From Oleispira sp. (GTDB lineage: Bacteria; Pseudomonadota; Gammaproteobacteria; Pseudomonadales; Oceanobacteraceae): 64,000 bases of DNA. The notes beneath the pieces are model-generated. The model did no database searches. It saw only the letters and a list, made by a program, of their open reading frames with translations, and was not told the DNA's origin. A program made the translations under genes and the position numbers. The stretch is taken from contig JAESQF010000053.1 of the NCBI GenBank assembly GCA_016765295.1, forward strand, positions 42,948 through 106,947, read 5' to 3'. This document shows, piece by piece, positions 12,366-48,745 of the stretch (the stretch's first letter is position 1; the number at the start of each line of letters is the position of its first letter).

Positions 12366-12441
12366 CTCCTCATAGTTTAACTGGATAAAACTGCCGCCTC
12401 CTAAGCGGCTGCTCTGGGTTCGAGTCCCGGTGGGGAGACCA
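12366..12441 (+). tRNA. tRNA-Arg (anticodon CCT)
   Basis: Cloverleaf: acceptor CTCCTCA/TGGGGAG, anticodon stem GCCGC/GCGGC with loop CTCCTAA, T arm CTGGG-TTCGAGT-CCCGG, encoded CCA. Confidence 0.93.
12427..12441 (+). repeat. attL core repeat
   Basis: CCGGTGGGGAGACCA, 3' end of tRNA-Arg, identical to 48675-48689. Confidence 0.88.
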
Positions 12442-12574
12442 ATTCTACATTTCAGAACATCCTGCACAATCCAAGAACATCCATTTATCATATCTAAAAC
12501 CCTACATACATAGCATATTTCGTCCACCAGCGTTTTTTATCGTTTAAAGATCGTTATGGACAGCCGATACTTTT

Positions 12575-12648: not shown

Positions 12649-13848
12649 TTGATAATGCCTTTAACAGATACAAAGATTAAAACAGCAAAATCCAAAGATA
12701 AAAGTTACAAGCTAGCCGATGGCGAAGGTCTGTATTTATTGGTAAGAAGTTCCGGCACAAAGAGCTGGCAAATGAAGTACCGATTCCTCAACAAAGAAAA
12801 AACGTTAACGCTAGGCAAGTACCCTGAAATCAATATAAAGGGAGCCCGCCGATTAAAGTTTGAAGCTAAATCTCTACTTTCAGAAAACATCGATCCCAAT
12901 CAAAATAAAAAAGACAAAATACAATCCTTCAAAAAAGACCATGAAAATGAGTTCATAGAAGTTGCTGAGAGATGGTATAAAAACCAACTTCCACGATTGT
13001 CTCAAAAATACGCAATCAAAACCCACCGCCTTCTTTCCGGCTGGGTTTACCCGATAATCGGTAAACTAAGCATTAAAAAGATATCAACTCGCGATATTCT
13101 TGATGTGCTTAGAGCAATGGAAAAAAAAGGGATAGGAGAAACCACTCGTAAAACCAAAGGGTTAATCGAGCAGGTTTTTACATTTGCCCTTGCTGAAGGT
13201 CTAGTGGATAACAATCCTGCCACTGGTGTTGAAAAGGCGCTTAAAGCTTTACCTCCTGTACAGCACCAAAGACACCTGCCCTTTAAACGCCTCGGTGAAC
13301 TTGTTATAAAAATTAAGCAAGATAGCGGCAGTACTGTTTCCCAATTAAGTTTTTTATTGCTTATCCATACAATGGTTAGAACAAATGAAGTCCGCTGGAT
13401 GGAATGGACAGACATCGATTTTGAGAAAAAGCTTTGGAATATTTCTGCTGAAAAAATGAAGATGCGCAAAGGCCACATTGTCCCGCTCAGTAAACAAGCC
13501 TTAGTTATTTTAGAACAACTTAAGATGATTAATGGAAGATCGCGCTACGTCATGAATAGTACGGTAAAAGCTGACCAGCCTATGAGTGAGAATGTATTTC
13601 TAGACTTACTAAAGCGTATCGATATGACCTCAGCGACAACGACTCATGGTTTAAGAGGAACAGCATCATCTTACCTGCACGATTTAGGTGAAAACACACT
13701 TGCTATTGAAAAGTGCTTAGCTCACTCAGATAAAAATAAAGTTAGGGATGCATATAACCATACTGATTATTTAGACGAAAGAGTGATTCTCATGCAAAAA
13801 TGGTCAGATATTATTGATCAGAAGAATGTAGTTCGAATAGCCTCATGA
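12649..13848 (+). CDS. int: Tyrosine-type site-specific integrase (P4-like, DUF4102 N-terminal domain)
   Basis: 'PLTDTKIKTAKSKDKSYKLADGEGLYLLVRSSGTKSWQMKYRF...LGKYPEI'; C-terminal 'THGLRGTASSYLHDLGE...CLAHSDKNKVRDAYNHTDYLDER'. Confidence 0.95.
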   Translation: MIMPLTDTKIKTAKSKDKSYKLADGEGLYLLVRSSGTKSWQMKYRFLNKEKTLTLGKYPEINIKGARRLKFEAKSLLSENIDPNQNKKDKIQSFKKDHENEFIEVAERWYKNQLPRLSQKYAIKTHRLLSGWVYPIIGKLSIKKISTRDILDVLRAMEKKGIGETTRKTKGLIEQVFTFALAEGLVDNNPATGVEKALKALPPVQHQRHLPFKRLGELVIKIKQDSGSTVSQLSFLLLIHTMVRTNEVRWMEWTDIDFEKKLWNISAEKMKMRKGHIVPLSKQALVILEQLKMINGRSRYVMNSTVKADQPMSENVFLDLLKRIDMTSATTTHGLRGTASSYLHDLGENTLAIEKCLAHSDKNKVRDAYNHTDYLDERVILMQKWSDIIDQKNVVRIAS

Positions 13849-15948: not shown

Positions 15949-16464
15949 ATGAAAACCAAAGAGATAAATAGATTTCTTGAAATGTTACATAGTAAAAGTA
16001 AAGATATTGGAATTAAAAAGCTATTCAATAGCGTAGCAAGTCATTATAAATCTATAGATAATAAAGACATCAGTTACGTTACATTTTCTAGTAAATTAAA
16101 TCCAAATATAGAAACGCATAAACTAAATATTGAAGATGTAATTTTTGTTATTTTAGAATTGAAAAAAAGTAATGATCATGGTGTTGTTTTAAAAGAGCTA
16201 ATGTCGATTTTCGAAATGCACATTGAATACGTCATACCAGACGTACAAATTAAAAAACATAATTATGTATCATTTATGAACACTTGGATGAAATTCAATA
16301 AAGAACATAGCGATATTCAAATAGCTTTAAATTCTGCTTTAGATGATTACAAAATATCTAGAAACGAATTGAAAAGTATCAAGACAGAGATTGAAGAGCA
16401 GATAGAAGCTTTATCCAATTTAAGAATTGCGTTAGATGATGTATGTGGAAGACAGTTAGCTTAA
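15949..16464 (+). CDS. Phage CII-like regulatory protein, divergent paralog of 33835-34347
   Basis: 'VTFSSKLNPNIETHKLNIEDVIFVILEL' and 'ISRNELKSIKTEIEEQIEALSNLRIAL' align by eye with the CII-like protein at 33835. Confidence 0.5.
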   Translation: MKTKEINRFLEMLHSKSKDIGIKKLFNSVASHYKSIDNKDISYVTFSSKLNPNIETHKLNIEDVIFVILELKKSNDHGVVLKELMSIFEMHIEYVIPDVQIKKHNYVSFMNTWMKFNKEHSDIQIALNSALDDYKISRNELKSIKTEIEEQIEALSNLRIALDDVCGRQLA

Positions 16465-16496: not shown

Positions 16497-16823
16497 CTAA
16501 TCAAATAACTTACTTATCCCCCATCCGACTAGTCCTATGACAGCTATGGGGGCAGCTGCGGTCATTACTGCTCCAGCAGCCATACCACCACCAACGGTTG
16601 CGCCAACTGTTGCCATTCCTGAAGATATAGCCGCGGCCCCTGCTGTACCGGCAGCTCCAGCAGTTCCGGCAAGTGCTGCCCCAGTCGTCCCTGCTGTTGC
16701 TGACATTATTGTTGCCGCTGACGCTCCACTTACTGCGGAAGCAGTCGTGGCGCCTTGAGCAAGAGTTGCCGCTGCTGATAAGGTGGCTACTTTATTTGAT
16801 ACCTTGTTTTCCATATTTATCAT
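16497..16823 (-). CDS. Small Gly/Ala-rich glycine-zipper hydrophobic protein
   Basis: 108 aa, 'AGTTGAALAGTAGAAGTAGAAAISSGMATVGATVGGGMAAGAVMTAAAPIAVIGLVGWGISKLFD'. Confidence 0.6.
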   Translation of the reverse strand: MINMENKVSNKVATLSAAATLAQGATTASAVSGASAATIMSATAGTTGAALAGTAGAAGTAGAAAISSGMATVGATVGGGMAAGAVMTAAAPIAVIGLVGWGISKLFD

Positions 16824-16839
16824 CCACTTTAAATCAGAT

Positions 16840-17076
16840 TTAACTGAATCTACTCATAAGGAAAGAAACAGTAGCAGCAGCCGCTGCGAGAGGTACAACC
16901 ACAGGAGCCGCAGCTACTGAAGTGACAATAAGTACCCCTGAGACTACCGCCCCTCCTAGTCCACCCGCCACTGTAGCAACTGCAGTTCTTTCTGTACTAA
17001 CTTCATCAGAGCCAGTTATTTTTTTAGATATTTCATTTCCTACGCCACCTATACTAACCGCTTGTATAATAGTCAT
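16840..17076 (-). CDS. Small hydrophobic Gly/Ala/Val-rich protein
   Basis: 78 aa, 'VATVAGGLGGAVVSGVLIVTSVAAAPVVVPLAAAAATVSFLMSRFS'; 16 bp upstream of 16823. Confidence 0.5.
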   Translation of the reverse strand: MTIIQAVSIGGVGNEISKKITGSDEVSTERTAVATVAGGLGGAVVSGVLIVTSVAAAPVVVPLAAAAATVSFLMSRFS

Positions 17077-20153: not shown

Positions 20154-20747
20154 TTAATTAAGTATTTCATTAATTAGCATGTCATCTGGAAACCCCAGTA
20201 TTCTAATACTCTCATTATCTTCAATAATAATTTCAACCTGATTAATATTCTCAGGCTGCCCAGCCTCTCTCGAATTATCAGGATATAAAACTGACTGATT
20301 ATCAGAGCCAATCCATTGCTGATTAGTATTTCTGCTATCTTCTTGATACCTCCCAAGCGTAACAATATCGCAAAATTCAAGGATATTTGAAAAATTATTT
20401 TGAGACTCTAACTCTTCTTGCTCATAACCCGTAAATAGGAAAATCGTTAAGTCAGAGTGTTCTCTGATTTTTCGAATTAACCACCAGAGATTGCTAGACT
20501 GATGTAATGGCTCGCCACCGAGAAAAGTTACACCTTGAATGTTTGAAGTATTCAAAATACGATCAAGCAGCTGCTCTCTTTGCACCAACAACTTATCTTT
20601 GAATGACCACATTTCTTTATTCCAGCAGCCATTACACGCAAGTGCGCAACCTTGAAACCAAACCACGAAACGCTTACCTGGTCCGTATATATGGCTCGAA
20701 GACTCCACATGTGAGAGATTAAAGTAATCTCCATACTGTTTTTCCAT
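20154..20747 (-). CDS. Small radical SAM 4Fe-4S protein (NrdG-like activase family)
   Basis: 'GPGKRFVVWFQGCALACNGCWNKEMWSF' with CxxxCxxC; 'GVTFLGGEPLHQ'. Confidence 0.85.
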   Translation of the reverse strand: MEKQYGDYFNLSHVESSSHIYGPGKRFVVWFQGCALACNGCWNKEMWSFKDKLLVQREQLLDRILNTSNIQGVTFLGGEPLHQSSNLWWLIRKIREHSDLTIFLFTGYEQEELESQNNFSNILEFCDIVTLGRYQEDSRNTNQQWIGSDNQSVLYPDNSREAGQPENINQVEIIIEDNESIRILGFPDDMLINEILN

Positions 20748-20749
20748 GA

Positions 20750-21259
20750 CTATACCGTGCGCGTTAGGACTAATTGTATCTGCCCCAAAGTATTTCGCCC
20801 TTCTTTTACCGAATACCCCTGAGCTTTTGCTTTTTCAATAGCCTGTTTCCGTGTGGCTTCAACTCGGGCCTTGCGCTCCTCTACAAGACGGAGACGTTCT
20901 TGCTCCGCTAGGGTCTCTAAATGCTGATTATAGGCGGCATCGTAAGCTAAGCTCAGCTCAGAAAGAAATCGGCTTATCGGAGTATAACGACGGTCTGCCA
21001 GCCCACCAACAATTCGAGTTGAGTATTCATCACTATCATGCAAAAAAACCCAGCGCTCTCCTTGCCTTCTGAAAAATTGGCGTCCGTTATAATCACTGCG
21101 ATTAGTCAAGATATCACCTGCCTGCACTTGATTTCGCTGTGAAATACCATGTAATATCGCACTGCTTACTAGTTTAGGTTCTGCACCAACTCTTTCTAAC
21201 GCATCAAATAAAACAGTTTCAATTACAAACGGTGTTGTGGTTTTAATCACTGCACTCAT
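20750..21259 (-). CDS. DUF1257 / Ycf35-like protein
   Basis: 169 aa; N-terminal conserved region, helical middle, C-terminal 'RKQAIEKAKAQGYSVKEGRNTLGQIQLVLTR'. Confidence 0.7.
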   Translation of the reverse strand: MSAVIKTTTPFVIETVLFDALERVGAEPKLVSSAILHGISQRNQVQAGDILTNRSDYNGRQFFRRQGERWVFLHDSDEYSTRIVGGLADRRYTPISRFLSELSLAYDAAYNQHLETLAEQERLRLVEERKARVEATRKQAIEKAKAQGYSVKEGRNTLGQIQLVLTRTV

Positions 21260-21261
21260 GT

Positions 21262-21468
21262 TTACGTCCTTTTTATTTTCTGCACACGCACTTGCTGAAC
21301 CGACTGTTGTTGTCGATACTCATCGGTTTTCTTAACATTACTCACCACCCCCTCCAGCTCCAGTAACTCCTCTAGGGCTTCTAAACAACTTTCACCTTTA
21401 AAACCACTAGTCTTTGCAGTAATAGCACCTTCATCATCAATAGTGATTACAATTTGTTGCTCAGGCAT
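21262..21468 (-). CDS. DUF2997-like protein
   Basis: 68 aa; 'QQIVITIDDEGAITAKTSGFKGESCLEALEELLELEG'. Confidence 0.7.
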   Translation of the reverse strand: MPEQQIVITIDDEGAITAKTSGFKGESCLEALEELLELEGVVSNVKKTDEYRQQQSVQQVRVQKIKRT

Positions 21469-23746
21469 TCACTCTCTCCTTATCGCAGACAATCTTAGCG
21501 CTTAAGCGTGCAGCATCTTTCTTTGCATGTTCCAACTGTTCTGTATCCTTAATAATAAGAAACCTTTGCTTATTAAGACTACGTAGCTCTGTACATTCAG
21601 CTGGTAATTCTTGATCTGGCCATGTGAAAGATCCTGATTGGAGAGCTTTTTCTTTTAACCCCAATTGCTTCTCAAATGCCTTGCTATCTTTATTTGGCTG
21701 ATAAATAAACCGTTCGCCATGAGTACTTAACATACTCTGAGCAAGATATAGATCTGACTGACATCCATTAACAGCGACATCTGCATTTTGAATTTCACGT
21801 TCGATTTTTTTCAAGGAAAGATGATGATCCTCCAGTGCCTTACTAAAAGTAGAATAATGTTTTTTCCAAATTTTACTATTGAATATGCCTTTCCACTGTT
21901 CAGCTTGCTCAACCATCATACTGTTAAGTGCTTCACGTTTTTTGCGCATACACTCTAACTTGGCTGATTCTAAAAGTACTGCACGCTCTTCTTCCTTTTC
22001 TGGCAATACATCAGGTAAGAACTGCTCTGGCTCTAAGTCTTTGACCTTAGTCTCCTCCAACCTTCCATTAGAAAGAGACTTCACAGACTCTTTCCAAGCA
22101 ACACAAAAAGCAGCATCTACTAGTAGTTTCCCTTCACCTTCTTTGCTTATTAGTAAATTCTGCTCTTCCTTCCGAGCGCTAACTATATCCATTTTTTCAT
22201 TCAATGATTTCAGTAATTCTGCTCGCTTCCCCTCCCAACTATGGTTTTGCTGTGCTTCATCTAGTTTTTCCTCTGTATCATTACCACGCTGCCGAATACT
22301 GACTTGCAAATCCTCATAGCGTTTATTCTTTTCTATCCGTCCTGCAGGCGTTGCTTTTGTAACAGACCAAGATTGTAGTGTATCCAACTCCTGATTTAAT
22401 TGTTTCACGGCTTGATCTTGACCCAGCAGGAACCCTTTCAGAAAACCCTTCAAACGATCAGCAAACCCAGCCTGCTTATCATCAATATTCTTCTGCTGAT
22501 ATTTGAGGGATGTGAGCTTATCTTGCCAATTTTCTTCAGCATTTTCCCAATCGTTATAAAGCGAATCTTTTTTAGCTTCGGGTGGGCAATAAGGAGGATG
22601 AATAGCTACATGGTAATCAATTTCATGAGCCATATAATCATGCTGATAATTAGTAAATTTTGATGCCAGAGATTTAGCACTATCATTTAAAAAAATATCG
22701 ATAGTATCAGTATTGATGTCCTTCAATCTTTTAGTTCTATTATCCTCAACAGACTGTATCAAACCTGGTTGATTGGAAAAACGTACTGATTGCTTATTAG
22801 GCAAGTCTCCCATAGTAACTTCTGATTTATATTGCCAAGCGGCGTCCTCGACTGCTTGATCATAGAGGGATCCTAACATCTCACTCTGCACACTCGATAA
22901 TCTCAGGCACCAGTTAACAATATCGAAATTCGGTGAGTTTGGTAGTAGCCAATTCCCAGATTCCGACAGTAGCAATGTGGGAATTATGTTATCGGTTAAT
23001 GACACCCCTTTCCGAGCGACCTTCGCTATATTTTTAGCACTCGTATTTAGTAATAACTGAAATGAATGCCCTGGATCATCAACAGTAAACTCACTCACTC
23101 TAGATAAACTTTGAAGCGTTTCATTTAGACAATCTTTAAGAGTTCCGAAAAGCTGGCGAGAATGATTAGTAACAACCTCCCCATCAGGGTGATTAACTTT
23201 GTTCTGCCGTTGATTTTGCTGCAGGTATTCATTTTCTGAATTTTCCCAAAACAATTTGCAAAAGCTACGGAAGCTATCATCAATCTGTTGCGACTCTAGA
23301 TGTATACTCCAAGCTTTATCATCAGATGTTATTAATACCTTCTGATCCATCAGCAACAAACCTTGGGATTTAGTAGTAGCATGATCTACTAAAATTAACG
23401 CACCTGCTTGTGATACACCACTTCTAACCAGGCATCGACCTGACAAAGTATCAATCGCCATTTGGTTTGATTTGTCATCACCGAGTAAAAGGTATATTCG
23501 TACACCGCTGTCTGCTTTTTGCTTTAATGCCTCTATCAACTTAATTTCTTTAAGCTGGTCGCATGCAATCAACAGGGTCTGTCGAGCATTATTAATAGCA
23601 GAAATTAGTTCACTTCCACTAACAAGGCCAAGTACAGCAGATGAATCGAAATCACAATCTGAAGGCTGTTGGCTAAACAATGCGGCTAGACGCTCATTTT
23701 TATAATCAATTTTAAAGTTATCTTGTCTAAGCTGTATCTGAGCCAT
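21461..23746 (-). CDS. PLD-like domain / coiled-coil protein
   Basis: N-terminal 'ELISAINNARQTLLIACDQL...GVRIYLLLGDD...ALILVDHATTKSQGLLLMDQKVLITSDDKAW...FCKLFW' resembles a degenerate PLD fold; long charged helical C-terminal part. Confidence 0.6.
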   Translation of the reverse strand: MAQIQLRQDNFKIDYKNERLAALFSQQPSDCDFDSSAVLGLVSGSELISAINNARQTLLIACDQLKEIKLIEALKQKADSGVRIYLLLGDDKSNQMAIDTLSGRCLVRSGVSQAGALILVDHATTKSQGLLLMDQKVLITSDDKAWSIHLESQQIDDSFRSFCKLFWENSENEYLQQNQRQNKVNHPDGEVVTNHSRQLFGTLKDCLNETLQSLSRVSEFTVDDPGHSFQLLLNTSAKNIAKVARKGVSLTDNIIPTLLLSESGNWLLPNSPNFDIVNWCLRLSSVQSEMLGSLYDQAVEDAAWQYKSEVTMGDLPNKQSVRFSNQPGLIQSVEDNRTKRLKDINTDTIDIFLNDSAKSLASKFTNYQHDYMAHEIDYHVAIHPPYCPPEAKKDSLYNDWENAEENWQDKLTSLKYQQKNIDDKQAGFADRLKGFLKGFLLGQDQAVKQLNQELDTLQSWSVTKATPAGRIEKNKRYEDLQVSIRQRGNDTEEKLDEAQQNHSWEGKRAELLKSLNEKMDIVSARKEEQNLLISKEGEGKLLVDAAFCVAWKESVKSLSNGRLEETKVKDLEPEQFLPDVLPEKEEERAVLLESAKLECMRKKREALNSMMVEQAEQWKGIFNSKIWKKHYSTFSKALEDHHLSLKKIEREIQNADVAVNGCQSDLYLAQSMLSTHGERFIYQPNKDSKAFEKQLGLKEKALQSGSFTWPDQELPAECTELRSLNKQRFLIIKDTEQLEHAKKDAARLSAKIVCDKERVNA

Positions 23747-25362
23747 TACACTACCTCCATTAATTTAACTGCTTGAATAGAATCTTGCAAATAACGTGGC
23801 AACTCATCCTCTTCTTTTGGAGTAAAGCCTGGCGTTCCATCAACGACCAACCCTGCCTCCATATCTCGTATGAAATCTAAGCCACTACTGCATTCCCAGC
23901 AATAGGTATATGTAGAGCCAATAAATATCCAATACCGGCCATGATTATCGTTCTGTTTTTGTAGTGCGACTCGCACCCAATTATCAGGAAGGATCGCCTC
24001 ATTCCCTCTCTGTGATTCTAGAGTTAACAGTAACCCCTCCGCATCACTCACACAGGTCGCAACTGCTGCCAGGTTGCGACGTTGTCTTGGTGTATGTACA
24101 TAGCGATCAGAGTAAATAACTTTTTCAACAAGCTCTCCACCTGTAAGCTGACAAATCAGTTGCTCAAGAGACAACGAGTCCCCATTAACCAAGCTGATCG
24201 GTAATCTCAACTTCTTACTTTTCGATGGTGTTAGGTCAGACATCGCTGCCGCATGCCAAAAAGCTTTTGAATGATGTCCACTGTTCAAGCTATCGAATAG
24301 ATTCGCGCCACTCTTTAGAGGTAATTCAAATTTATTTAAAGCCGGATTATCAATCCATTGAGCTTGTTGCTGTCGTGCTGCCTTAGATATTTGATAAGAT
24401 TTATTGTAGAAATTCTCAAGCCATTGATTATGCCATTGCTCTGCATCTAACTGCTCTGTTGGTTTAATTGGAATATGTCGAGTCTCTACGGAATCAAATT
24501 CCCCACAATTTGTTTGTAAGTACTTTAGATTATGACGGCCAATTCTGAAGTTTTCTGTAGCACTCGGATACTGCTGTATATGCTCAAGATCTATAGCCAT
24601 ACGGCTATCCGCATTATCCCAACGGCCTTCAAGCCGTTCAGTAATGTTATCCATAATCAAATGGAATTTATCAGCGCATTCCTCAATAGACATATCTATA
24701 GTTACTGGCCTATGAGATGTTTTTTTCTGGCTAAAGTCCAATAAATCCAATTGCCCTTTAAGGACGAATATTGAACTAGATTGACCTAAGCTCCAGTTCA
24801 GTTCCAACGTTGCACTTTTTTCTGAAGAGCAAATAACTTCTGGTATAATGCTAACCAACGACAAAGTTTTTTTATTTTGGCTGTTTTTTCGGCCATCATA
24901 TATTTCTTCGACCATAACAACCTGCCGCTCTACATCAACGCGATAATCTGATCGTGCCGCATCAACCCCCTTCAACCATCCTTTAGTATTCGGTTCAAAA
25001 AAAGCAGTATCTCGCTGTATTAATATTGGGCGTGTTCCTAGCAGTGGGTCGTTATTGATATACCATATATGGTAGAGACCACGCTCAGTAGCTGAATACA
25101 AACCCGAAGACTTAACAGCCTGACCTTTATCTGTTAATGAACTAGTTTCTGCATCCCATAATTTTTCGTTCTTTAAATAAGCCTTAAGCCTAGCAGGCAT
25201 ACTTACAGCATTGTTTTCCATCGATTTCAGCAATGAAACAAGATCAGGTCGTTCTCGCTTAAAAGTTACTTTAGCAATAATAGGAAAACGTTGTATTTTT
25301 ATATTACGAGTAAGCTGTAACGCCAATACGTTTTTATTCGCTTGGTTTTTAATGTTACTCAT
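23746..25362 (-). CDS. Uncharacterised 538-aa protein of candidate defence operon
   Basis: Complete ORF, 1-nt overlap with downstream gene, 1-nt gap after helicase gene. Confidence 0.6.
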   Translation of the reverse strand: MSNIKNQANKNVLALQLTRNIKIQRFPIIAKVTFKRERPDLVSLLKSMENNAVSMPARLKAYLKNEKLWDAETSSLTDKGQAVKSSGLYSATERGLYHIWYINNDPLLGTRPILIQRDTAFFEPNTKGWLKGVDAARSDYRVDVERQVVMVEEIYDGRKNSQNKKTLSLVSIIPEVICSSEKSATLELNWSLGQSSSIFVLKGQLDLLDFSQKKTSHRPVTIDMSIEECADKFHLIMDNITERLEGRWDNADSRMAIDLEHIQQYPSATENFRIGRHNLKYLQTNCGEFDSVETRHIPIKPTEQLDAEQWHNQWLENFYNKSYQISKAARQQQAQWIDNPALNKFELPLKSGANLFDSLNSGHHSKAFWHAAAMSDLTPSKSKKLRLPISLVNGDSLSLEQLICQLTGGELVEKVIYSDRYVHTPRQRRNLAAVATCVSDAEGLLLTLESQRGNEAILPDNWVRVALQKQNDNHGRYWIFIGSTYTYCWECSSGLDFIRDMEAGLVVDGTPGFTPKEEDELPRYLQDSIQAVKLMEVV

Positions 25363-25363
25363 T

Positions 25364-28300
25364 TCATTTAACTCCTTGTGAACTGGCTAGATTACGCAGT
25401 TCTTCAGTGCGAGATTCTTTATTGAAATATTTATAATGGCCCACAATTATAAGCTGATAGCGCGCCCTAGTAATAGATACATTTAGTCGATTTGGAGAGT
25501 CCATAAATCCATCTCGATTAGTATTTACCATAGAAAGAAATACCACATCAGCTTCCTGGCCTTGAAAATAGTCCACTGTCGCTAATTTAATTGAAATCCC
25601 CTTATAATTAAATCGTGCACGTCGCCCACTATTTCCGGGTAATTTTGCTAACTCCTCACTTAAGGCTTTTTCTTGCCCTTTGTAAAAGGTCAATACAGCT
25701 ACGTCGTAAGCCTCTCCACCGTTATTCTTTTTCTTACCTTCAGCCCATTCACAAAATACTTTTAACTCATTAATTATTTTCTGAACTTCTTTTACGTTAA
25801 CATTTTTGAAAGTTTTCCCTTCAACATCTATCCAGATACTTCGTACATCATAACGTTTATACCGCCACTCACGATCTGAAGCTGTCTGACAGCCATCTTT
25901 CAGTACTCCTGGCGGATAAAATTGTTTTCTTGGAAAAGCAGATATATCAGGATGCATACGGTGCTGATAGGTCAGTGTTGTATGTCGGTGATGCTTTTCT
26001 TTATGTGTAAAGCCTTGGTTCAATGTGGTCGGGTTGTCTTTCTTATATTTAGCTAGTCCATCCCCCGATAAAGCTTCAAGAATAGAGGGGAAAGCTATAT
26101 TCTTTAGTACATGGATACGCCCATTTGCATCAACCGACTTAGGAAAAAGCCGTTCCAAAATATCCGTTAAGTAACCCGTTTTTTGCTTATGATTTGCCGA
26201 TAATCGTAACCAATACTCTCTCTCTAAACGCCAGCATATTTCCTCTGACCACTTAGTATTCTCCATGCGATCTAGCAGCTCTTTTTGAATTTCAAACGTA
26301 TCAGTGTAATTCTTACGCTTAATCTTAAATGCTTTAACTGTTGTACCTAATTCTTTATGGAGCATAGCTTGGTGCGTGAGATGCCAACCCTCATGCAAAA
26401 TCAACATATCATTAGGAATTAGTGGCTGGATCACACTCAAGATTGATTCATCGATAAAACAAAGGTTAGCACTATAAAGATGCCATGGTTTTTGCTGAAT
26501 ACTGGCCGAACTTTGCACCCACTCAATCGTTTTATCATTTCTATTTATTTTTTTTATAAGTAGAATTTTATCCAAATCTCTGCTCAATATTTTATCTTGT
26601 TTACGCACATTCAACTCTTGCTGTAACGCTTGAAGTACGCCATGTGATACTGGTACAAGCATAGGTTGTGCATATGGACGCAGCTCTTCTAACCAAAGAC
26701 AAGCCTCCTGAATAGCTGGCGACAACGTCACTACTGGCGCTTTACCTCTAGGAGGAACAAGCATCAAGTCATCAAGATTAGCAACAATTTGCTCACGGTC
26801 GGTAAAAGGAGACAACTGACGCACATCACCCACAAGAACCCAGCGCTTAGCAAAACGAGCAGGTACCAAAAACTCCTGAAAAGTAGTCTTACTGCACTCA
26901 TCAATAATCATCACATCAAATGGAGGCTCACCATTATCGATAGAAATATTTTTATCGTTAAACAAACGAAGAATACCGATGGTAGTTCCACAGACTAGGT
27001 TGGATGAATCCACCATTAATTGCGTACTTATATTTCCACGCCCTACTGACTTTTCTAAAATAGCGAGCTGATTATCAAAATGATACTCCTCAACACCTAT
27101 CGCGTTACTCTCATAACCAATGCGCAATGGAAAAATATGCTGAGCTAAATTCGGATTCTCCTTAATACGTTCAAGTACATTATTAATCGCAGCATGGGTT
27201 GATGCCGACAGTAATACACGCTTACCGTCCAATACAAGCTGAATTATCAATTCAAGAATAGTGGTCGTCTTACCTGTACCTGGAGGACCATCAAGAATCG
27301 AAAAGTCTTCCGCAGCCAACGCTTTTCCAACAAACTCCCTTTGACGATCACAACCATCAAAATCAAGATTATTTAGGACGATCCAATCCTCTTCTTCAAT
27401 TGAAACAGGTTGAATATTCTGCCAATGTTTTTTATCACGACCTTGCAGTAAATGTATTAATGGCCAATGCCCACCTTGTGGTCGACTCATTAACTGATTT
27501 ATAGCCTCTTTCTGTCTCTTTAATTGGCTGGTATTTACACTAACCCGTATCTCCTGCTTTTTACCCAGTGCTGAAGGATATTCGCTATTCCAGTTCTTTT
27601 TACTTTTTAAGTTTCTGGACAACAGAATTTGTCGCTCTTCAGGGCGTGATTTTAAAATTCTAAAGCCATCATCATTTTTACGTTGAGTTGAATCTAGTAT
27701 TTTAACATTTTGATTATCACCAAAAAAATAATCCAATTCTGATTTACCTGTATCATCTCCTGAATTGTTATTTTCAATTAACTGAATCCATTTCTCTTCG
27801 GCCTTACGTGACTCAATTATAAAGCCAAGTTCTGGAAAATTTGAACAAGTAATCGCAGATTTTTCTTGTAACTGAGATGTACCACGAGCTTCTAGAATGA
27901 AATATTCTTTATCGATAGTGAGCGTCCACTCCTCATCATTCAATGCTAGCCCATTAGATTCTAAGTGAGCTAGGCTTAATTCGGATAGGCTTTTTTTTGT
28001 AACATCTGTAATTTTATGTGGAGGCAAACTAGGCTTTTCTTGAGTAAATATCAACCAACCATTAGCATTGCGTTGAGTCACAAGGTGACTAATAATTGAC
28101 TCATCTATAGAGCGAATTAAACTAAAATCTGCACGCTGACCATCAATGGAAAGGCTCGCGTTTGTAGCAACGATACCTTCCAACGTAAGACGACTATCAT
28201 CCTTGTTAATGACTCTGCAAGGATGACCATCAATATGCACCGTTTCCAGATGATCCAGACATACAGAAAGCGGACGAATAGATAGCTGGTAGCCACTCCA

Positions 28301-28741
28301 CTGAATCAACGAGTGGTCGCTGAGATTAGGCAGGCGTATTTCGAAACGATTATCCCCCCCCCGAAATTGACTTTCATTCAAAGAAAAACTTTGAAGCTTA
28401 GAACCTTTACCAGCAGTAACAGGGTGCTCTAAGTCAGGTAAGAACTCCTCATCCAGCAACGTCCCATCTGATTCAGACAAAATTTCAAACCAGTCTTGCT
28501 CATTATTTAACACTTCTATTTCACTGACTGGCGCCAAGCTCCAAATGCGCTCTTTCGGCTTCAGTCGATAGCAGGTATTCGCAATCGGTTGCCACTCACA
28601 GCTTACTTCCTTACTCTCCAAGGCCTTAATGCTGTTATCCAGATAATGCCTAAAAGGCATCAAGACATCGTTGGTTTGCTTGGACAATGTTGATGCATCA
28701 AAGCCATTGCCTTCTAAGGCAGTAAAAAAAGGATTATCCAT
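25364..28741 (-). CDS. UPF1/Dna2-like SF1 helicase
   Basis: 'ILDGPPGTGKTTTILELIIQLV', 'DVMIIDECSKTTFQEFLVPA', 'VLVGDVRQLSPF', 'TLTYQHRMHPDISAFPRKQFY', 'ATVDYFQGQEADVVFLSMVNTN', 'LNVSITRARYQLIIVG'. Confidence 0.92.
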   Translation of the reverse strand: MDNPFFTALEGNGFDASTLSKQTNDVLMPFRHYLDNSIKALESKEVSCEWQPIANTCYRLKPKERIWSLAPVSEIEVLNNEQDWFEILSESDGTLLDEEFLPDLEHPVTAGKGSKLQSFSLNESQFRGGDNRFEIRLPNLSDHSLIQWSGYQLSIRPLSVCLDHLETVHIDGHPCRVINKDDSRLTLEGIVATNASLSIDGQRADFSLIRSIDESIISHLVTQRNANGWLIFTQEKPSLPPHKITDVTKKSLSELSLAHLESNGLALNDEEWTLTIDKEYFILEARGTSQLQEKSAITCSNFPELGFIIESRKAEEKWIQLIENNNSGDDTGKSELDYFFGDNQNVKILDSTQRKNDDGFRILKSRPEERQILLSRNLKSKKNWNSEYPSALGKKQEIRVSVNTSQLKRQKEAINQLMSRPQGGHWPLIHLLQGRDKKHWQNIQPVSIEEEDWIVLNNLDFDGCDRQREFVGKALAAEDFSILDGPPGTGKTTTILELIIQLVLDGKRVLLSASTHAAINNVLERIKENPNLAQHIFPLRIGYESNAIGVEEYHFDNQLAILEKSVGRGNISTQLMVDSSNLVCGTTIGILRLFNDKNISIDNGEPPFDVMIIDECSKTTFQEFLVPARFAKRWVLVGDVRQLSPFTDREQIVANLDDLMLVPPRGKAPVVTLSPAIQEACLWLEELRPYAQPMLVPVSHGVLQALQQELNVRKQDKILSRDLDKILLIKKINRNDKTIEWVQSSASIQQKPWHLYSANLCFIDESILSVIQPLIPNDMLILHEGWHLTHQAMLHKELGTTVKAFKIKRKNYTDTFEIQKELLDRMENTKWSEEICWRLEREYWLRLSANHKQKTGYLTDILERLFPKSVDANGRIHVLKNIAFPSILEALSGDGLAKYKKDNPTTLNQGFTHKEKHHRHTTLTYQHRMHPDISAFPRKQFYPPGVLKDGCQTASDREWRYKRYDVRSIWIDVEGKTFKNVNVKEVQKIINELKVFCEWAEGKKKNNGGEAYDVAVLTFYKGQEKALSEELAKLPGNSGRRARFNYKGISIKLATVDYFQGQEADVVFLSMVNTNRDGFMDSPNRLNVSITRARYQLIIVGHYKYFNKESRTEELRNLASSQGVK

Positions 28742-28755
28742 TCACTTCAACTCAA

Positions 28756-30348
28756 TTAAATAAAAGGGTTTTCGCCTTCTTGTTTAAGACGTGGCTTTTT
28801 GCCGTTGAGTACTTCTATTGCTTCTGGCTCTGCAGTACTTGCCGCCACAGCTCGACCTTTAGCCCATTCACGGGTACTACTGATCATCTCACCCATAGTT
28901 TGCGATAATGGTGCTGTTGCCTTAATGGCCTTAAATACATCACCCTTACCAAGTTGATGGCCTTCGTCGAAAGCTAAAAACATGGCTTCTTTAACGGCTT
29001 CCTCTAACTCGGCTCCAGTAAAGCCTTTACTGATTTCAGCCAGTTCATCAAGATCAGTTTCTGAAAAATCATCTATCCTATTTCGGCGCTTAAGATGAAT
29101 AGAAAGAATCTCTTTACGATCTATTTGAACAGGTAAATCAACAAAGAAAATCTCATCAACACGGCCTTTACGCAGCAATTCAGGAGGTAACTGAGCAATC
29201 TGATTTGCAGTCGCCACTACGAAAACTGGTTTTTCCTTTTCTTGCATCCACGTTAAGAAAGTACCAAGTACACGTGAAGTGGTCCCTCCATCAGTCGATC
29301 CAGAACTTTGCATTCCAGAAAGGCCTTTTTCAATTTCATCTACCCACAAAATACTCGGGGCAAGTGCTTCGGCTGTTTGCAGCGCTGAGCGAATATTAGC
29401 CTCAGATTGCCCAACAATTCCTCCATAAATTTTACCCATATCGAGACGCAATAGTGGTAACTGCCATGCATTCGCTACTGCTTTGGCCGCAAGACTTTTA
29501 CCTGTACCAGGTAAGCCCAATAATAAAATACCGCGGGGTGTTTCGAGTCCAAATTTACGAGCGTCTTCTGTAAAGGATTGACGGCGCCGTTTCAACCAAG
29601 ACTTAAGGTTATCAAGACCACCAATGTCATCTAGAGAAGCTTTTGGGTGATAGTATTCTAGATGTCCACTTTTGCGAATCACCTGTTCTTTTTCACTAAC
29701 GATGAAAGATATTTCAGACTCAGTCAGTCGCTTGAATTCGCACGCTGCTTTAGAAAATGCCAGCTGAGCCTCACTCGTCGAAAGCCCCAATGCAGCTTCT
29801 AACAAAGCAGGTGACTCGTTATAATCACGCTCATCAATGTCATACCGATCCCTTGCTTGCCTTAGTAGTCTTTTAAGATCTTCGGTATCAGGTAAAGACA
29901 TCTCCATCACTTGTACTTCTTTTTCAAGCTCCGCAGGAAGTAAAGCTACTGGCTGAGATAAAACAACTGAACAACCAGAAATTTCACGACTGGCTACTGC
30001 AATCGAAAATGCGCGTAATCGACTGATTAGTGCATGATCAGCACTTGTTAGAAAATGGTGGAAATCTTCAAGTAACAACAAAAAATCAGGGCGGTCTTTT
30101 TCACTGTATTCTTGCAACCATTCAAGAATTTCGTGAGGCTGATCACCATCATCACAATTTTTCCAAGTATTCTCTTCACAATCATACTTTCTAAGCCCTT
30201 GCGGCCCATTCCAAACAAATAAGTCTCGATCAAGGTCCGATACAGCCTGAATACAACAAGCACGAATGCGAAGGGTTTCATGACTGACAATCTGAATCAG
30301 TGCAGCAGAAGACTGAATATTAGTTTTAAATGTTTTCAAAAAATCCAT
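28756..30348 (-). CDS. Ycf46-like AAA+ ATPase
   Basis: 'PRGILLLGLPGTGKSLAAKAVANAWQLPLLRLDMGKIYGGIVGQSEANIRSALQTAEALAPSILWVDEIEKGL'; N-terminal layout of Ycf46. Confidence 0.85.
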   Translation of the reverse strand: MDFLKTFKTNIQSSAALIQIVSHETLRIRACCIQAVSDLDRDLFVWNGPQGLRKYDCEENTWKNCDDGDQPHEILEWLQEYSEKDRPDFLLLLEDFHHFLTSADHALISRLRAFSIAVASREISGCSVVLSQPVALLPAELEKEVQVMEMSLPDTEDLKRLLRQARDRYDIDERDYNESPALLEAALGLSTSEAQLAFSKAACEFKRLTESEISFIVSEKEQVIRKSGHLEYYHPKASLDDIGGLDNLKSWLKRRRQSFTEDARKFGLETPRGILLLGLPGTGKSLAAKAVANAWQLPLLRLDMGKIYGGIVGQSEANIRSALQTAEALAPSILWVDEIEKGLSGMQSSGSTDGGTTSRVLGTFLTWMQEKEKPVFVVATANQIAQLPPELLRKGRVDEIFFVDLPVQIDRKEILSIHLKRRNRIDDFSETDLDELAEISKGFTGAELEEAVKEAMFLAFDEGHQLGKGDVFKAIKATAPLSQTMGEMISSTREWAKGRAVAASTAEPEAIEVLNGKKPRLKQEGENPFI

Positions 30349-30457: not shown

Positions 30458-32842
30458 TCAAGCACCCAATACTTCTTGCTTCCTGACATCATGGGTATTC
30501 GATGGTTTGGCATGTTGTGTCATAATAAATTCATTCACAACTTTCATTGAGGGCGACAATAAAATAAGTTGATCATCCGCCGTTAATTGATAGATATTCT
30601 CTGCAGGACTAATAGGGTTAGTGATTATTTGACGAACCAGATCATATTTTTCCAAGTGTTGTTTGATTGTTTTATTATCAATTATAATTTTCCCATCATC
30701 ACCACGAACGATAGATTTAATACTGGTAAGCAAAATTTTGTGACGTCTTAGTATTGGTAGTATTTGGTCGAAATTCATACCCGATAAAGACGGCACCTCG
30801 CTTGCGTCAATCACGTAAAACTCATTGAATTCATTATAAGCAACCATATTACTGATCGCAGTAGAAACACCATGATTGAACATAGATTGAACAACTAAAC
30901 TTTCTCCGATATCAGAAACATTAACCACTTCATTTACATCGGCATTCAAAATCGTATTCCGCAGTTCCTCATGATTAACCTCCGCTATCATATAAATATT
31001 ATCAACACTATGGTCACTGCACTTTTCACGGCAATAGCGTGAAATAGATAGTGCACTTAACAAGGTACGCTCATCCGCATCCAATGTACGATCTTCAGCA
31101 ACCAAGATAACCGTTTTGGCCTTATCAACATTGGCCTTCGCTAAAACATGCGGATCTCTAGCCTTACCAGCGATATATTCAACTTCACGGCGTTTATGTA
31201 ATCTCTGCATATCCTCATCATGATTAAGAACATCACCAAATTCTTCAGCGATTACGACTATGTTCGACTTTTTTCCTAATAGATAATTATCTTGGGCATT
31301 CATAGCCTTCATTATTAAAGTCGGAACACGATCATTCCATCCACAAATCACAATATGATTCTCATTTTTCACGTCAGAAACTCCTTGTCTTCTTCGTCTA
31401 TCTCTAAAATTAAATACAAACTCACCAACAATCGCGCCAACAGCTCCCAAAGGCACCAGAAATGCTGAAATTGTCACTAGCATCTGCCCTGAAAAAGTCT
31501 GAGGAAATAACACGCCGTTATATCCCGTTAAACTAAAAACAAATAACCAGATATGAACATCAAAAATATTAACCTCTTCAAATGAATTATTTAAACCGGA
31601 AGTAATTGCTAACTGATGTTCGGCATGAACAATTGAAAACGTTAAAATGAAATATGCTGCGATAACAGAAACAATTGAATAAGCAATATGCTGATAACGG
31701 TTCCATGCAATTAGAAAATCAAAAATCCCATGAACAAAACGACGATAGGCTAAAGCAAAGAATATGAGTACGGTTGCCAAAATCACATAGCCGATAATTG
31801 ACTGCTGATTATCTGCGAACAAGTCCAACAACTCCGAGCTCAAACTTAAACCACGAAAAAACTCTTGATAGCCAGACCCAGTATTAACGACTAAATGATG
31901 ATCTTCGGCATTAAAAGTAAATGCTTTAGCGTCACCATATGTTTGAGAAAGAACGCTGCCTTTTTTTATCGATCCAGAGCTAAGCCTTTTTAAAATAACC
32001 TCGGCAATACCTGCATTGATCTTTTTATCGGTACTCGATTGCCCTGCCAATAAAGCCCAAGTCCCTATGCTTTGAATTTTCTTATTAGCATTATCAAATG
32101 GGTATTGATTAGAATCTAAATCTAATGAGCTCATTCCTTGTACATGAGACATTATGTGAGCAATCTCAGACTTTTCCATACTAAGGATAGCAACAGCAGG
32201 GTCGCTTATAGTTTTAAAGGTATTCGCAGGATAAGCAGCAACATGTGCTATAGAATCTACGCGGCCTAGCTTAAAATCCTCAAGGCCTTTAGATATGCTG
32301 TGTTCACGAAAAAAATCAGATGGGGTAGAAATTCCAAATATTGAAAAGACAGTCCTGATTAGAGTATTAGTCGCACTATCTTTAGGTCCAATACTCATCG
32401 ACTGAACTTTACCAGATTTTATCAACTCAGATAGCTCAGTAAAATTGAATCGTTTATGATCTCCTGCCACTAATACTTGCAGAGCTTCAGGAAATAAAGG
32501 GAGCAGTATCTCAAAATTAGTATAAGGCTCACTCGCATTAAAATAGGCGTTTAATGCAATATCCTGCTGCACTATAATATAATCAGCTAACCCAGATTTA
32601 AGACGCTCGACATTCTCAACAGAACCACTACTCTCACTAATAAATACCTGAGTATCAGGAACGGTACTTTCTAATATATCCCGTATTTCTTTAGACACTT
32701 CATAGTACGGAGTGCCTTTCTCACCAGCAGACAATATAAAATATTGCTCTTCGGAATGAGAATAGGTGGAAAAGAAGAGGGAAATAAAGCAAAGAAACGG
32801 CAGAAAGCGTAGCATGAACAATCCATTGTCTGAAATTAGCAC
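30458..32842 (-). CDS. TAXI/NMT1-like periplasmic sensor - transmembrane K+ channel-like pore - RCK (TrkA-N) fusion
   Basis: Signal peptide; TAXI-like 'EEQYFILSAGEKGTPYYEVSKEIRDILE'; pore-like 'FSLTGYNGVLFPQTFSGQMLVTISAFL'; RCK 'ENHIVICGWNDRVPTLIMKAM...IVVIAEE...GKARDPHVLAKANVDKAKTVILVAED'. Confidence 0.8.
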   Translation of the reverse strand: MLISDNGLFMLRFLPFLCFISLFFSTYSHSEEQYFILSAGEKGTPYYEVSKEIRDILESTVPDTQVFISESSGSVENVERLKSGLADYIIVQQDIALNAYFNASEPYTNFEILLPLFPEALQVLVAGDHKRFNFTELSELIKSGKVQSMSIGPKDSATNTLIRTVFSIFGISTPSDFFREHSISKGLEDFKLGRVDSIAHVAAYPANTFKTISDPAVAILSMEKSEIAHIMSHVQGMSSLDLDSNQYPFDNANKKIQSIGTWALLAGQSSTDKKINAGIAEVILKRLSSGSIKKGSVLSQTYGDAKAFTFNAEDHHLVVNTGSGYQEFFRGLSLSSELLDLFADNQQSIIGYVILATVLIFFALAYRRFVHGIFDFLIAWNRYQHIAYSIVSVIAAYFILTFSIVHAEHQLAITSGLNNSFEEVNIFDVHIWLFVFSLTGYNGVLFPQTFSGQMLVTISAFLVPLGAVGAIVGEFVFNFRDRRRRQGVSDVKNENHIVICGWNDRVPTLIMKAMNAQDNYLLGKKSNIVVIAEEFGDVLNHDEDMQRLHKRREVEYIAGKARDPHVLAKANVDKAKTVILVAEDRTLDADERTLLSALSISRYCREKCSDHSVDNIYMIAEVNHEELRNTILNADVNEVVNVSDIGESLVVQSMFNHGVSTAISNMVAYNEFNEFYVIDASEVPSLSGMNFDQILPILRRHKILLTSIKSIVRGDDGKIIIDNKTIKQHLEKYDLVRQIITNPISPAENIYQLTADDQLILLSPSMKVVNEFIMTQHAKPSNTHDVRKQEVLGA

Positions 32843-33014: not shown

Positions 33015-33686
33015 CTAGTCAAAAAATGAACTGATGGCTTTATACGCTAGATAGCACCCACCTCCTACCACTAGCCCTGTCAGAAGTGCTGGCCCCGCTG
33101 CAGCTCCCGCCATAAATCCAGAAACCCCCACTCCCCCAGTACTTACAGCTGTATACCCAGCCATTCCTCCCGTACTAGCAGCCATAGTGCTCCCTAAAGT
33201 TGAGCTTCCGGTTGTAACGACAGTCCTAACTATTGGTGGAGCCATTACTGAACCAACCCTAGCCGCATTGGCTATTTGTGCAGCCTTTACAGTAATCGCC
33301 GCTGCTGATAAAACCTGAGAGCTTAAAGGTATCCCTTGAATGCACCATAAAACAAAACTTTCACAGTTATTTGTCAGAAGATTATACTCATTCTCTCCCA
33401 GTCTGCTATTAGCCCTCTCAATGCTTTCATACTTCCCATAAACTCTTATTAAATGTGACTTTACGGTGACGTCATTACCAGCAGCAAACTCTCTTACTGT
33501 TGTCCTTTCTACACAGTCCTTGCTGAAACCCGACGACATTCCTGCGTAGTGAATCACCTGACCACCACCAATATAAATACCATGATGTGAATAAACGCCG
33601 CGTGATGAAACTAAGTGATCCCCTTCTATTAGAGTATTCCCTTCGGAGTCTTCAAAATCAGTCACTAATTTTTTGTTATAAAGCAT
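33015..33686 (-). CDS. LRAT/NC-domain protein with C-terminal Gly-rich hydrophobic module
   Basis: 'EGDHLVSSRGVYSHHGIYIGGGQVIHYAG', 'YNLLTNNCESFVLWCIQG'; C terminus 'GFMAGAAAGPALLTGLVVGGGCYLAYKAISSFFD'. Confidence 0.8.
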   Translation of the reverse strand: MLYNKKLVTDFEDSEGNTLIEGDHLVSSRGVYSHHGIYIGGGQVIHYAGMSSGFSKDCVERTTVREFAAGNDVTVKSHLIRVYGKYESIERANSRLGENEYNLLTNNCESFVLWCIQGIPLSSQVLSAAAITVKAAQIANAARVGSVMAPPIVRTVVTTGSSTLGSTMAASTGGMAGYTAVSTGGVGVSGFMAGAAAGPALLTGLVVGGGCYLAYKAISSFFD

Positions 33687-33834: not shown

Positions 33835-34347
33835 TTATGTAAGGTATATTTTCTTTTCTGCCAAGTACCGCAGTAAATCACGCAAGTTTGAAGTAGCATT
33901 TATATCGTCAATTAATTCTTTATGAAGCGCTTCATACTCATTTGCACTAATCCTTCCATCTTCTAGTGCTTCGTATAATTTCTCATAAGCATCACCTCGC
34001 TTACGGTTCCAGTCCATTGACGCATTCAGTACACCACGTGTAGAAATATCAAAATCACCATCGTCCCTCGATATAGGAATACAATGATGATCAAACTCAG
34101 CCGCTATGGCCTGCAAGATATCACTGTACCCGCCATGCCCTGTTTCATGCATAACCGTCAACATCTGAAACAAGTCACTTAAATTGAGCTGGTGACTAGG
34201 CTGGTCTTTATTACATTTATTTGAAAATGTTTTTGGTTTTAATCGACTACCTTCAGACACCTTTTTATTAATGCTATCAGCCAGCCCAACACGCCCACCA
34301 GGAAAATCGCGGGTTACATCATGAATAGTTTTAAGAATTAGCTCCAT
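33835..34347 (-). CDS. Phage regulatory CII-like protein
   Basis: 'LADSINKKVSEGSRLKPKTFSNKCNKDQPSHQLNLSDLFQMLTVMHETGHGGYSDILQAIAAEF' pattern of the Phage_CP76/CII family. Confidence 0.65.
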   Translation of the reverse strand: MELILKTIHDVTRDFPGGRVGLADSINKKVSEGSRLKPKTFSNKCNKDQPSHQLNLSDLFQMLTVMHETGHGGYSDILQAIAAEFDHHCIPISRDDGDFDISTRGVLNASMDWNRKRGDAYEKLYEALEDGRISANEYEALHKELIDDINATSNLRDLLRYLAEKKIYLT

Positions 34348-34478: not shown

Positions 34479-35843
34479 CTACGCCTCTATATCAGGCTTC
34501 TCATATGCGAGTAGATTAGAATACAACAACTCGCCCTTCATCAAATCAAACGGCACCACAAACAGCTCAAAACCACCTTCATAGATAAACACCGGCAATT
34601 GCTCCTCGAAGTTCTCATTCATAGGGTAAATAAGCATCAGCTTCTTATCACCCGTTAAATACTTATGCCCATACGCATACAGCTGATACATATCACTCTG
34701 AGAGATACCGTAGTTCTTAGCTCTACTATTTCCGTTAATCAGCTTCCACTTGGTATCCATTACCCATTCTGGATCACCAGTATTAGTCGCCATAAGGTCT
34801 GGGCGTAAACGGAACATCGATTTACCATTATGATCATTAACTAACGCTTCACCACGCACCTGAGTTTTAAGTCTGGCATCTGCGCCCAACGACTCTGGCA
34901 TATTTTTATGCAAACAATGAGCAACATAGTCTTCGAATATACGCTCCATAGGATAAAGCAAAGACAAGGTATTAAACGTCCCTGCAGAAGCAGTAGGCCC
35001 CAAGCCAGACAGTAGCAATTTCGTCCAAGCCAATACTTCTTGGTAATGCTGCATGCCCCTATCAATCTTTACTTTTTGAAAGTCACCAGCAACATCATGA
35101 CTTTTCGGTACTTCTTCGAAAACAAAGCTAAGCTCTCGTGCCAAGCGCTGATTGCGGTTAGATCTAGCGAGCTTAGCGACCTTCATTAATGCTGTTTTAA
35201 TTAATCGATTCGCAGGTCGGTTAACTTGATACTCTGTATGCTCTATATAGAAGCGTTCGCTATGGATACTATTCTTACGGATTTGCTGACTAACTAATAA
35301 CCGCCCCTTTAAGAATTTTGAATTCTTTTGCACCTGTACATAGTCCGATCGAATACCACGTTTAACCAAGTGATTCGTCAGGGCCAAAAATTGACTAATA
35401 TACACCTCAAGCAGCGGCATCTTTGCATCACGTATATCGGCTCTGCCTGAGTTTTTAAAAGGGCTATCTCTCAGCGTACGCAGCATCTTTAGCAGAATTT
35501 CACGGCAGTGCTCGTCGCTACTAACGTCACTATTAGCGCTAGAAGGATTATATAGCTTAGGCAGTACCTCTATTTGAGTGCCGCAAGCCGTTTGCAGCAC
35601 CCCAACATAATTACGTACCTGCAAGGCTGGCTTGCGTCGATAGGTGGCAGGTTTTAAAAAGGGTTGTATATCGGCATCACGCGTACTCTCGCTATATTGC
35701 AGTGCCATCAAACTTTCATACGCCTTATTAGGTAGCACTACCACATTAGGTGCAAGTACTTGAGAAGAAGAGTCGTCAGTGAAGCCTTGAGCTTCACTAA
35801 CTAAGAACCCAAACTCACGTATGCAGTACGACTTAATGTTCAT
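34479..35843 (-). CDS. mcrC: McrC-like component of McrBC-type restriction system
   Basis: 'NYVGVLQTACGTQIEVLPKLY', 'FRLRPDLMATNTGDPEWVMDTKWKLI' (PD-(D/E)xK-like). Confidence 0.88.
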   Translation of the reverse strand: MNIKSYCIREFGFLVSEAQGFTDDSSSQVLAPNVVVLPNKAYESLMALQYSESTRDADIQPFLKPATYRRKPALQVRNYVGVLQTACGTQIEVLPKLYNPSSANSDVSSDEHCREILLKMLRTLRDSPFKNSGRADIRDAKMPLLEVYISQFLALTNHLVKRGIRSDYVQVQKNSKFLKGRLLVSQQIRKNSIHSERFYIEHTEYQVNRPANRLIKTALMKVAKLARSNRNQRLARELSFVFEEVPKSHDVAGDFQKVKIDRGMQHYQEVLAWTKLLLSGLGPTASAGTFNTLSLLYPMERIFEDYVAHCLHKNMPESLGADARLKTQVRGEALVNDHNGKSMFRLRPDLMATNTGDPEWVMDTKWKLINGNSRAKNYGISQSDMYQLYAYGHKYLTGDKKLMLIYPMNENFEEQLPVFIYEGGFELFVVPFDLMKGELLYSNLLAYEKPDIEA

Positions 35844-48674: not shown

Positions 48675-48689
48675 CCGGTGGGGAGACCA
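48675..48689 (+). repeat. attR core repeat
   Basis: CCGGTGGGGAGACCA identical to tRNA-Arg 3' end 12427-12441. Confidence 0.88.
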
Positions 48690-48745
48690 TTCACGAAGTT
48701 CAGTACTTCAAGTCTGGTCTCTGCGCACAGCTTGATCGAAGATAA

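Follow-up and report, generated by a model that had tools for sequence, protein, structure and literature searches.

The stretch of DNA considered here, referred to below as the window, comprises 64,000 nucleotides (nt) of a contig (JAESQF010000053.1) from the gammaproteobacterium Oleispira sp. Between positions 20154 and 30348 the window carries seven minus-strand open reading frames (ORFs), designated G, F, E, D, C, B and A in the order of their transcription, that together form a candidate defence operon; all coordinates given for the operon and its parts refer to the minus strand. The junctions between consecutive genes measure, in the same order, 14 nt, 1 nt, a 1-nt overlap, an 8-nt overlap, 2 nt and 2 nt. 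All seven frames are open at the positions reported in a first-pass annotation of this DNA, and the junctions are identical to those that it listed.

The first gene, G (28756-30348), encodes a Ycf46/CDC48-like AAA+ ATPase of 530 amino acids, and the second, F (25364-28741), a UPF1-like superfamily 1 (SF1) helicase of 1125 amino acids. E (23746-25362, 538 amino acids) is a winged-helix protein with a C-terminal phospholipase D (PLD)-like fold, identified from an AlphaFold2 model, Foldseek and homology to a sister system described below, whilst D (21461-23746, 761 amino acids) combines an N-terminal PLD fold lacking the HxK motif with a long coiled coil, as judged by Foldseek, hhalign and a motif scan. 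Three smaller genes complete the operon: C (21262-21468) specifies a DUF2997 protein of 68 amino acids, B (20750-21259) a protein of 169 amino acids that has a helical middle and a C-terminal motif, GYSVKE....GQIQLVL, and A (20154-20747) a short activase-type (NrdG/PflA) radical S-adenosylmethionine (SAM) enzyme of 197 amino acids. Four of the labels in the first-pass annotation are upheld by Pfam: AAA+ for G (AAA, 105 bits; lid, 36 bits), UPF1-like SF1 helicase for F (AAA_12, 124 bits; AAA_11, 99 bits), DUF2997 for C (PF11211, 37.8 bits against a cut-off of 24.1) and radical SAM for A (Fer4_12, 119 bits).

All of the helicase motifs are present in F, with GPPGTGKTT, DECSK, QHRMHP and QGQEAD invariant, and the protein begins with an N-terminal region of its own of ~460 amino acids. 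In G, the sequence DEIEK and most of GLPGTGKS are invariant, and the protein is 75-81% identical across complete loci.

No Pfam family matches E, which had been entered simply as unknown; that entry can now be replaced. The AlphaFold2 model (predicted local distance difference test, pLDDT, 78.9) displays a winged-helix topology and a mixed C-terminal domain. According to DSSP, residues 39-118 (25009-25248) of the model form three helices and then a two-strand wing, an assignment made from topology with no database match. The PLD-like fold region occupies approximately residues 399-537 (23752-24168), limits that are drawn from the model and Foldseek, with part of E matching the PLD folds of MITD1, SauUSI and NgoAVII at probabilities of 0.95-1.00 and modest E-values (5e-3 to 0.12). 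The MIT_C Pfam match that might be expected from the MITD1 fold match was not found, nor was there a match to E in a viral fold library. At the PLD active site every orthologue has H-x-R-Y/F in place of HxKxxxxD: the tetrapeptide HGR(Y/F) at residues 474-477 (23932-23943), with its invariant histidine and arginine, is kept in 11 of 11 E orthologues, and a diverged copy (L045, see below) has HQRY. This is a candidate degenerate active site.

For D, the earlier description of a PLD-coiled-coil protein stands as far as the fold is concerned, with Foldseek returning probabilities of 1.00 to FAM83B, NucT and TrmBL2, but the PLDc_2 match (24.9 bits) falls below the Pfam cut-off of 27, and in a poor model (pLDDT 58) the N-terminal PLD fold alone is usable. 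The further suggestion that D is a PLD nuclease effector is not supported. All 11 orthologues lack HxK at the homologous site, where the sister PLD protein carries two such motifs in the motif scan, and a nuclease role for D is rejected on the strength of this loss. Since the HxK residues of its sister homologue are missing, D is most reasonably taken to be a pseudo-enzyme that serves as a scaffold and bears a coiled coil, and E is the better candidate for the effector. A sequence search of solved structures with E, D, B and C brought up no useful relative.

Amongst the small proteins, C has an invariant cysteine, Cys28 (codon 21385-21387), that is also found in DUF2997 proteins outside the system. 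B has a mean column identity of 74% over 11 loci. The label DUF1257 previously given to B had to be abandoned, as B has no Pfam match, a search with PF06868 came back empty across the genome and the hhalign probability is below 1%; B as a DUF1257/Ycf35 protein is dismissed on these grounds. In A, a CxxxCxxC motif spans residues 34-41, and C34, C38 and C41 are invariant in 11 loci. A scores 119.1 bits against the NrdG model TIGR02491, below the cut-off of 126.1, and 64 bits against PflA, and finds the pyruvate formate-lyase (PFL)-activating enzyme 3c8f with an E-value of 4e-12. No nrdD partner for A is present in the operon. A is thus an activase-type radical SAM enzyme, with NrdG and PflA as its nearest relatives by score.

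Homologous operons are rare and uniform in gene order. A search of relatives' genomes with E gave 5 positives out of 194, counting the source genome of the window, and the four other positive genomes, all of the window's family, contain all seven genes in the order G-F-E-D-C-B-A. A scan of GTDB genomes found eight loci: in Parathalassolituus penaei and an Oceanospirillaceae metagenome-assembled genome (MAG), both already in the relatives' set, in Shewanella decolorationis S12, Photobacterium, Vibrio and Amphritea, and on two MAG contigs. Gene order is unchanged at these loci and the genes nearly abut or overlap, with both MAG contigs ending inside F. Because this order recurs in other genomes, the packing of the seven ORFs is not due to chance, and they do constitute one conserved unit: the same order is seen in every complete homologous locus, across bacterial orders. 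An independently run search with an AAA+ profile identified the diverged copy L045 in a different class of the phylum. L045 has the full set of seven genes, with the DUF2997 gene sitting behind the radical SAM gene, and its E and D can be recognised chiefly by comparing profiles (96% and 68% probability, respectively). The L045 AAA+ gene is truncated at the contig end and broken by a TAG stop (8603-8604), the split gene being either a pseudogene or an assembly error. Among the matches listed, the other, weaker ones to the AAA+ profile were not accompanied by further genes of the system at the loci that were read. F orthologues of comparable strength are also rare, with one further match among 398 genomes of the phylum; E had no match in plasmids, phages or E. 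coli, and F none in phages or viral contigs.

Horizontal transfer of the operon between marine bacteria is clear from sequence comparison, since a pair of copies from different families is more alike than the window copy is to those of its own family. The AAA+ and radical SAM proteins of Shewanella and of G023, a genome of the window's family, are 95% and 92% identical, respectively, whilst the corresponding figures for the window copy against members of its own family are 76-81% and 46-52%.

Further evidence of exchange comes from within the operon. Close operon pairs share ~83% nucleotide identity over 10 kb. In such pairs, residues 1-50 of A are 84-90% identical, after which identity falls to 31-57%, with residues 101-197 at 31-42%; the A proteins of G023 and Shewanella are alike throughout their length. 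The C-terminal two-thirds of A (residues 51-197; 20157-20597) has thus been swapped between otherwise similar operons, a pattern that speaks for recombination at the 3' end and possibly for diversifying selection on A. The exchange also makes it probable that A experiences arms-race or specificity selection.

Related genes make up a four-gene sister system encoding an SF1 helicase, an E-like protein of the winged-helix-turn-helix type, a tandem PLD protein and a CARF-AAA-helix-turn-helix (HTH) protein (RtcR_PspF1, 693 bits), found on plasmids of Vibrio aerogenes, V. rumoiensis and Pontibrevibacter. The same four genes occur in order on a chromosome of the window's order, where the E and D profiles match at 5.6e-9 and 5e-8 (sister loci L050, L051, L052 and L082). 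The sister helicase, E-like and PLD-like genes are homologous to F, E and D and share their order; in hhalign comparisons E matched the 369-amino-acid E-like protein at 90% and D the active PLD protein at 95.6%. The two systems differ in that the sister PLD protein has two intact HxKxxxxD motifs, a PLD-like C-terminus is missing from the E-like protein and a CARF transcription activator replaces the module formed by the AAA+ protein, B, C and A. Close to the sister genes lie cas1 and cas2 on the V. aerogenes plasmid and dndBCD on the Pontibrevibacter conjugative plasmid. The four-gene sister is itself possibly undescribed.

A published precedent is provided by UPF1-like helicases of the CoCoNuT-type family, which typically precede a winged HTH (wHTH) protein fused to an effector and thought to couple the helicase to a nuclease (PMC11090510). 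CoCoNuT types II and III (CnuH, CnuE) resemble the operon in placing, after a UPF1-like helicase, a wHTH protein that has an effector domain, and type III-C has PLD effectors. The arrangement of F followed by E is thus that of helicase and wHTH-effector in CoCoNuT, a likeness of layout judged from gene order and from the winged-helix topology and PLD-like end of E. Unlike CoCoNuT, the seven-gene unit lacks an McrB GTPase/McrC pair at all loci, adds an AAA+ protein, a DUF2997 protein, B and a radical SAM enzyme, and has HxR in place of HxK.

Relatives of the remaining genes are found together elsewhere, lending weight to the earlier idea that the AAA+, radical SAM and DUF2997 genes are a separate module: such genes cluster without the helicase core. 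In cyanobacteria a DUF2997 gene adjoins ycf35 and a ferredoxin gene (PMC4284462), and in a gammaproteobacterium (locus L029) Hsp70, radical SAM, Ycf46, DUF1257 and DUF2997 genes are clustered. Common to these clusters and the operon is a DUF2997 protein with the invariant cysteine, together, in L029, with a Ycf46-type AAA+ protein and a radical SAM enzyme; they differ from the operon in having neither a helicase nor PLD-like proteins, and in having a true DUF1257 protein where the operon has B. The viral match to G is likewise a phage Ycf46 protein with no helicase core beside it: on a 197-kb IMG/VR contig (L068, 7937-12389), a large phage has radical SAM, Ycf46-like AAA+ and DUF1257-like genes close together, a plastid-type module in a virus. 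In L028 (8586-10117), DUF1257, a protein resembling by eye the formylglycine-generating enzyme (FGE)/sulfatase-modifying type and DUF2997 lie in a row. The L028 arrangement and the invariant DUF2997 cysteine hint at cysteine modification. Since F, E and D are homologous to the sister genes and have the CoCoNuT precedent, they belong to a known theme, with G, C, B and A as the new element, and the operon looks like a joining of two pre-existing modules.

The genomic setting of the operon points in the direction of defence. It is likely that the operon rides on a 36-kb integrative element inserted at a tRNA-Arg(CCT) gene (12366-48690). This gene, found by ARAGORN on the plus strand at 12366-12441, forms the left end of the element, and in genomes of the same genus the conservation of the left flank reaches as far as the end of the tRNA. 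A candidate attL, CCGGTGGGGAGACCA, at the tRNA 3' end (12428-12442) is an exact 15-nt direct repeat of the candidate attR at 48676-48690, and a tyrosine integrase gene (Pfam Phage_integrase, Arm-DNA-bind_3) lies just inside the left end on the plus strand (12649-13848). A clean empty integration site was sought in relatives and not found, the left flank alone being conserved. Cargo at 34.5-48.4 kb includes an McrB-like gene (35833-38184, apart from the seven-gene unit), Septu PtuA, HsdS, HsdM, a Fic gene and HsdR. The defence island that had been claimed for this region is thus real, with a type I restriction-modification (RM) system with a Fic gene, Septu PtuA and the McrB-like gene all on the same element. 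Homologous loci likewise sit in defence islands in several hosts: in G016, DndH lies directly downstream of the operon and there are matches to DndF and DndG; in Amphritea, a Druantia-type DruE and a GajB-like gene precede the operon and a WYL gene lies downstream of it; and in a gammaproteobacterial MAG a cytosine methylase gene lies close by.

Other genes of the element deserve brief mention. Genes for CII-like (Phage_CP76) regulators at 15949-16464 (plus strand) and 33835-34347 (minus strand) flank AlpA/YagK genes and the operon. Small Ala/Gly-rich hydrophobic proteins, similar to the C-terminal tail of the element's LRAT-domain protein, are encoded on the minus strand at 16497-17076 and 33015-33686 and are possibly a membrane-active pair. 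The gene upstream of G (30458-32842, minus strand) was considered as a further member of the operon and ruled out, as it has no homologue beside the operon in any related locus. Its product is a predicted secreted or membrane protein in which a TAXI/NMT1-type solute-binding domain is fused to a channel-like segment and to an RCK/Castor-Pollux-like domain; the protein resembles a ligand-gated ion channel whose sensor is of the tripartite ATP-independent periplasmic (TRAP) transporter type.

From these observations we consider it rather likely that the operon is an undescribed, horizontally transferred seven-gene system acting against phages or other invading elements, with the defensive role deduced from context. 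It is probably a variant of the UPF1-helicase class equipped with a new radical-SAM/AAA/DUF2997 module. In agreement with the first-pass annotation, no named system in the 2023 PADLOC hidden Markov models matches the operon and no open paper was found that combines its parts, a scope that leaves room for later naming. Several observations weigh against this interpretation. At 5 of 10 loci (Shewanella, Photobacterium, G007, G023 and the Oceanospirillaceae MAG), no named defence gene was seen within ~10 kb in a scan of selected neighbours taken singly, the Vibrio neighbourhood offers a weak mad3 match alone, and the neighbourhood scan across loci was made without a matched random-locus control. 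A canonical, intact nuclease motif is found in none of the seven proteins, D having no HxK and E having HxR. Finally, in a mirror-tree analysis of pairwise identities, comprising 28 non-independent pairs from 8 loci, A co-varies with no other gene, C included (correlations, r, of -0.17 to 0.21), a result that speaks against A and C being a closely matched pair. The remainder of this analysis counts on the supporting side: D, E and F co-vary tightly (r of 0.94-0.97), as does G with C (0.86), and B gives weaker values.

Such a system would most likely operate as follows. F would translocate on invading RNA or single-stranded DNA, and E would use its winged helix to bind F as well as nucleic acid, with the PLD-like domain (H474xR476) cleaving or otherwise marking the target and D acting as a PLD pseudo-enzyme scaffold with its coiled coil. 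The Ycf46-type AAA+ ring formed by G, with C and B, would gate or remodel the F-E-D core, and the activase A would render the complex competent by modifying one of its partners; C is the most probable one, the site being Cys28, its vicinity or conserved glycines. The sequence of events and the choice of substrate for A are guesswork, whilst the chemistry of A, the part played by B and the nature of the targeted nucleic acid are conjectural. We know of no antiphage system that uses a protein subunit modified by a radical SAM enzyme. A more specific proposal, in which A places a radical-derived modification (a glycyl radical, a thioether or an oxidised cysteine) on C, this modification gates the helicase-PLD machine and the exchangeable C-terminus of A sets specificity, is offered tentatively, as an unlikely but conceivable version of the scheme.

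Could the operon instead serve the host in ways unconnected with invading DNA? It might act in stress or in RNA/protein quality control, taking no direct part in defence and owing its place on islands to its mobility; the rescue of stalled or damaged nucleoprotein complexes would then fall to the helicase and the AAA+ ring, and the maturation of an iron-sulfur or redox protein to the radical SAM enzyme. The association of cyanobacterial DUF2997 with ycf35 and a ferredoxin gene (PMC4284462), the core-less cluster of L029 and the five loci with no named defence neighbour would all sit comfortably with such a role. Defence is nonetheless the better fit for an operon that is rare, has been transferred across orders, lies on an element and repeatedly neighbours RM, Septu, Dnd or Druantia genes, and the sister core also adjoins CRISPR or Dnd genes; a quality-control function therefore seems improbable to us.

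We regard as distinctly doubtful the view that the operon represents a diverged form of Mokosh type I, with phage transcripts degraded by a COG1112 helicase together with a PLD protein and the remaining five genes in accessory roles. Mokosh type I (MkoA/MkoB) also pairs a UPF1-like helicase with a PLD-fold protein, and the best PADLOC model for F is MkoA (264.6 bits), with D matching MkoB weakly (18.9 bits). The F-MkoA match is, however, in three pieces and strongest in the helicase motor, and the sister helicase, with its different gene set, scores 274 bits against MkoA, so that the score is not specific (PADLOC cut-offs are not shown). D, for its part, barely matches MkoB, covering ~130 of 610 positions without HxK; the operon further differs from Mokosh in its degenerate PLD and its seven genes. 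Least probable of all, in our estimation, is a logic like that of the prokaryotic viperins, themselves radical SAM enzymes from an antiviral context, whereby A would make a modified nucleotide or small inhibitor under the control of infection-sensing products of the other genes: A is small, is the sole gene so strongly swapped between operons and has a weak prokaryotic viperin match (16.9 bits) and a QueE-type model match, but this 197-amino-acid activase-type protein is closest by score to the protein-modifying activases described above (NrdG, PflA and the PFL-activating enzyme in the PDB), its viperin match is limited to the radical SAM core and the sister system does without A.

If the operon is indeed a defence system, the class of UPF1-like helicases with winged-helix effectors would gain a seven-gene member, and this class would be linked to a Ycf46 AAA+/DUF2997/radical SAM module known mainly from cyanobacteria and plastids. 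The operon would offer a tractable way to learn the role of DUF2997 and its invariant cysteine, and it raises the testable question of why the radical SAM gene is the one that is swapped among otherwise conserved operons.

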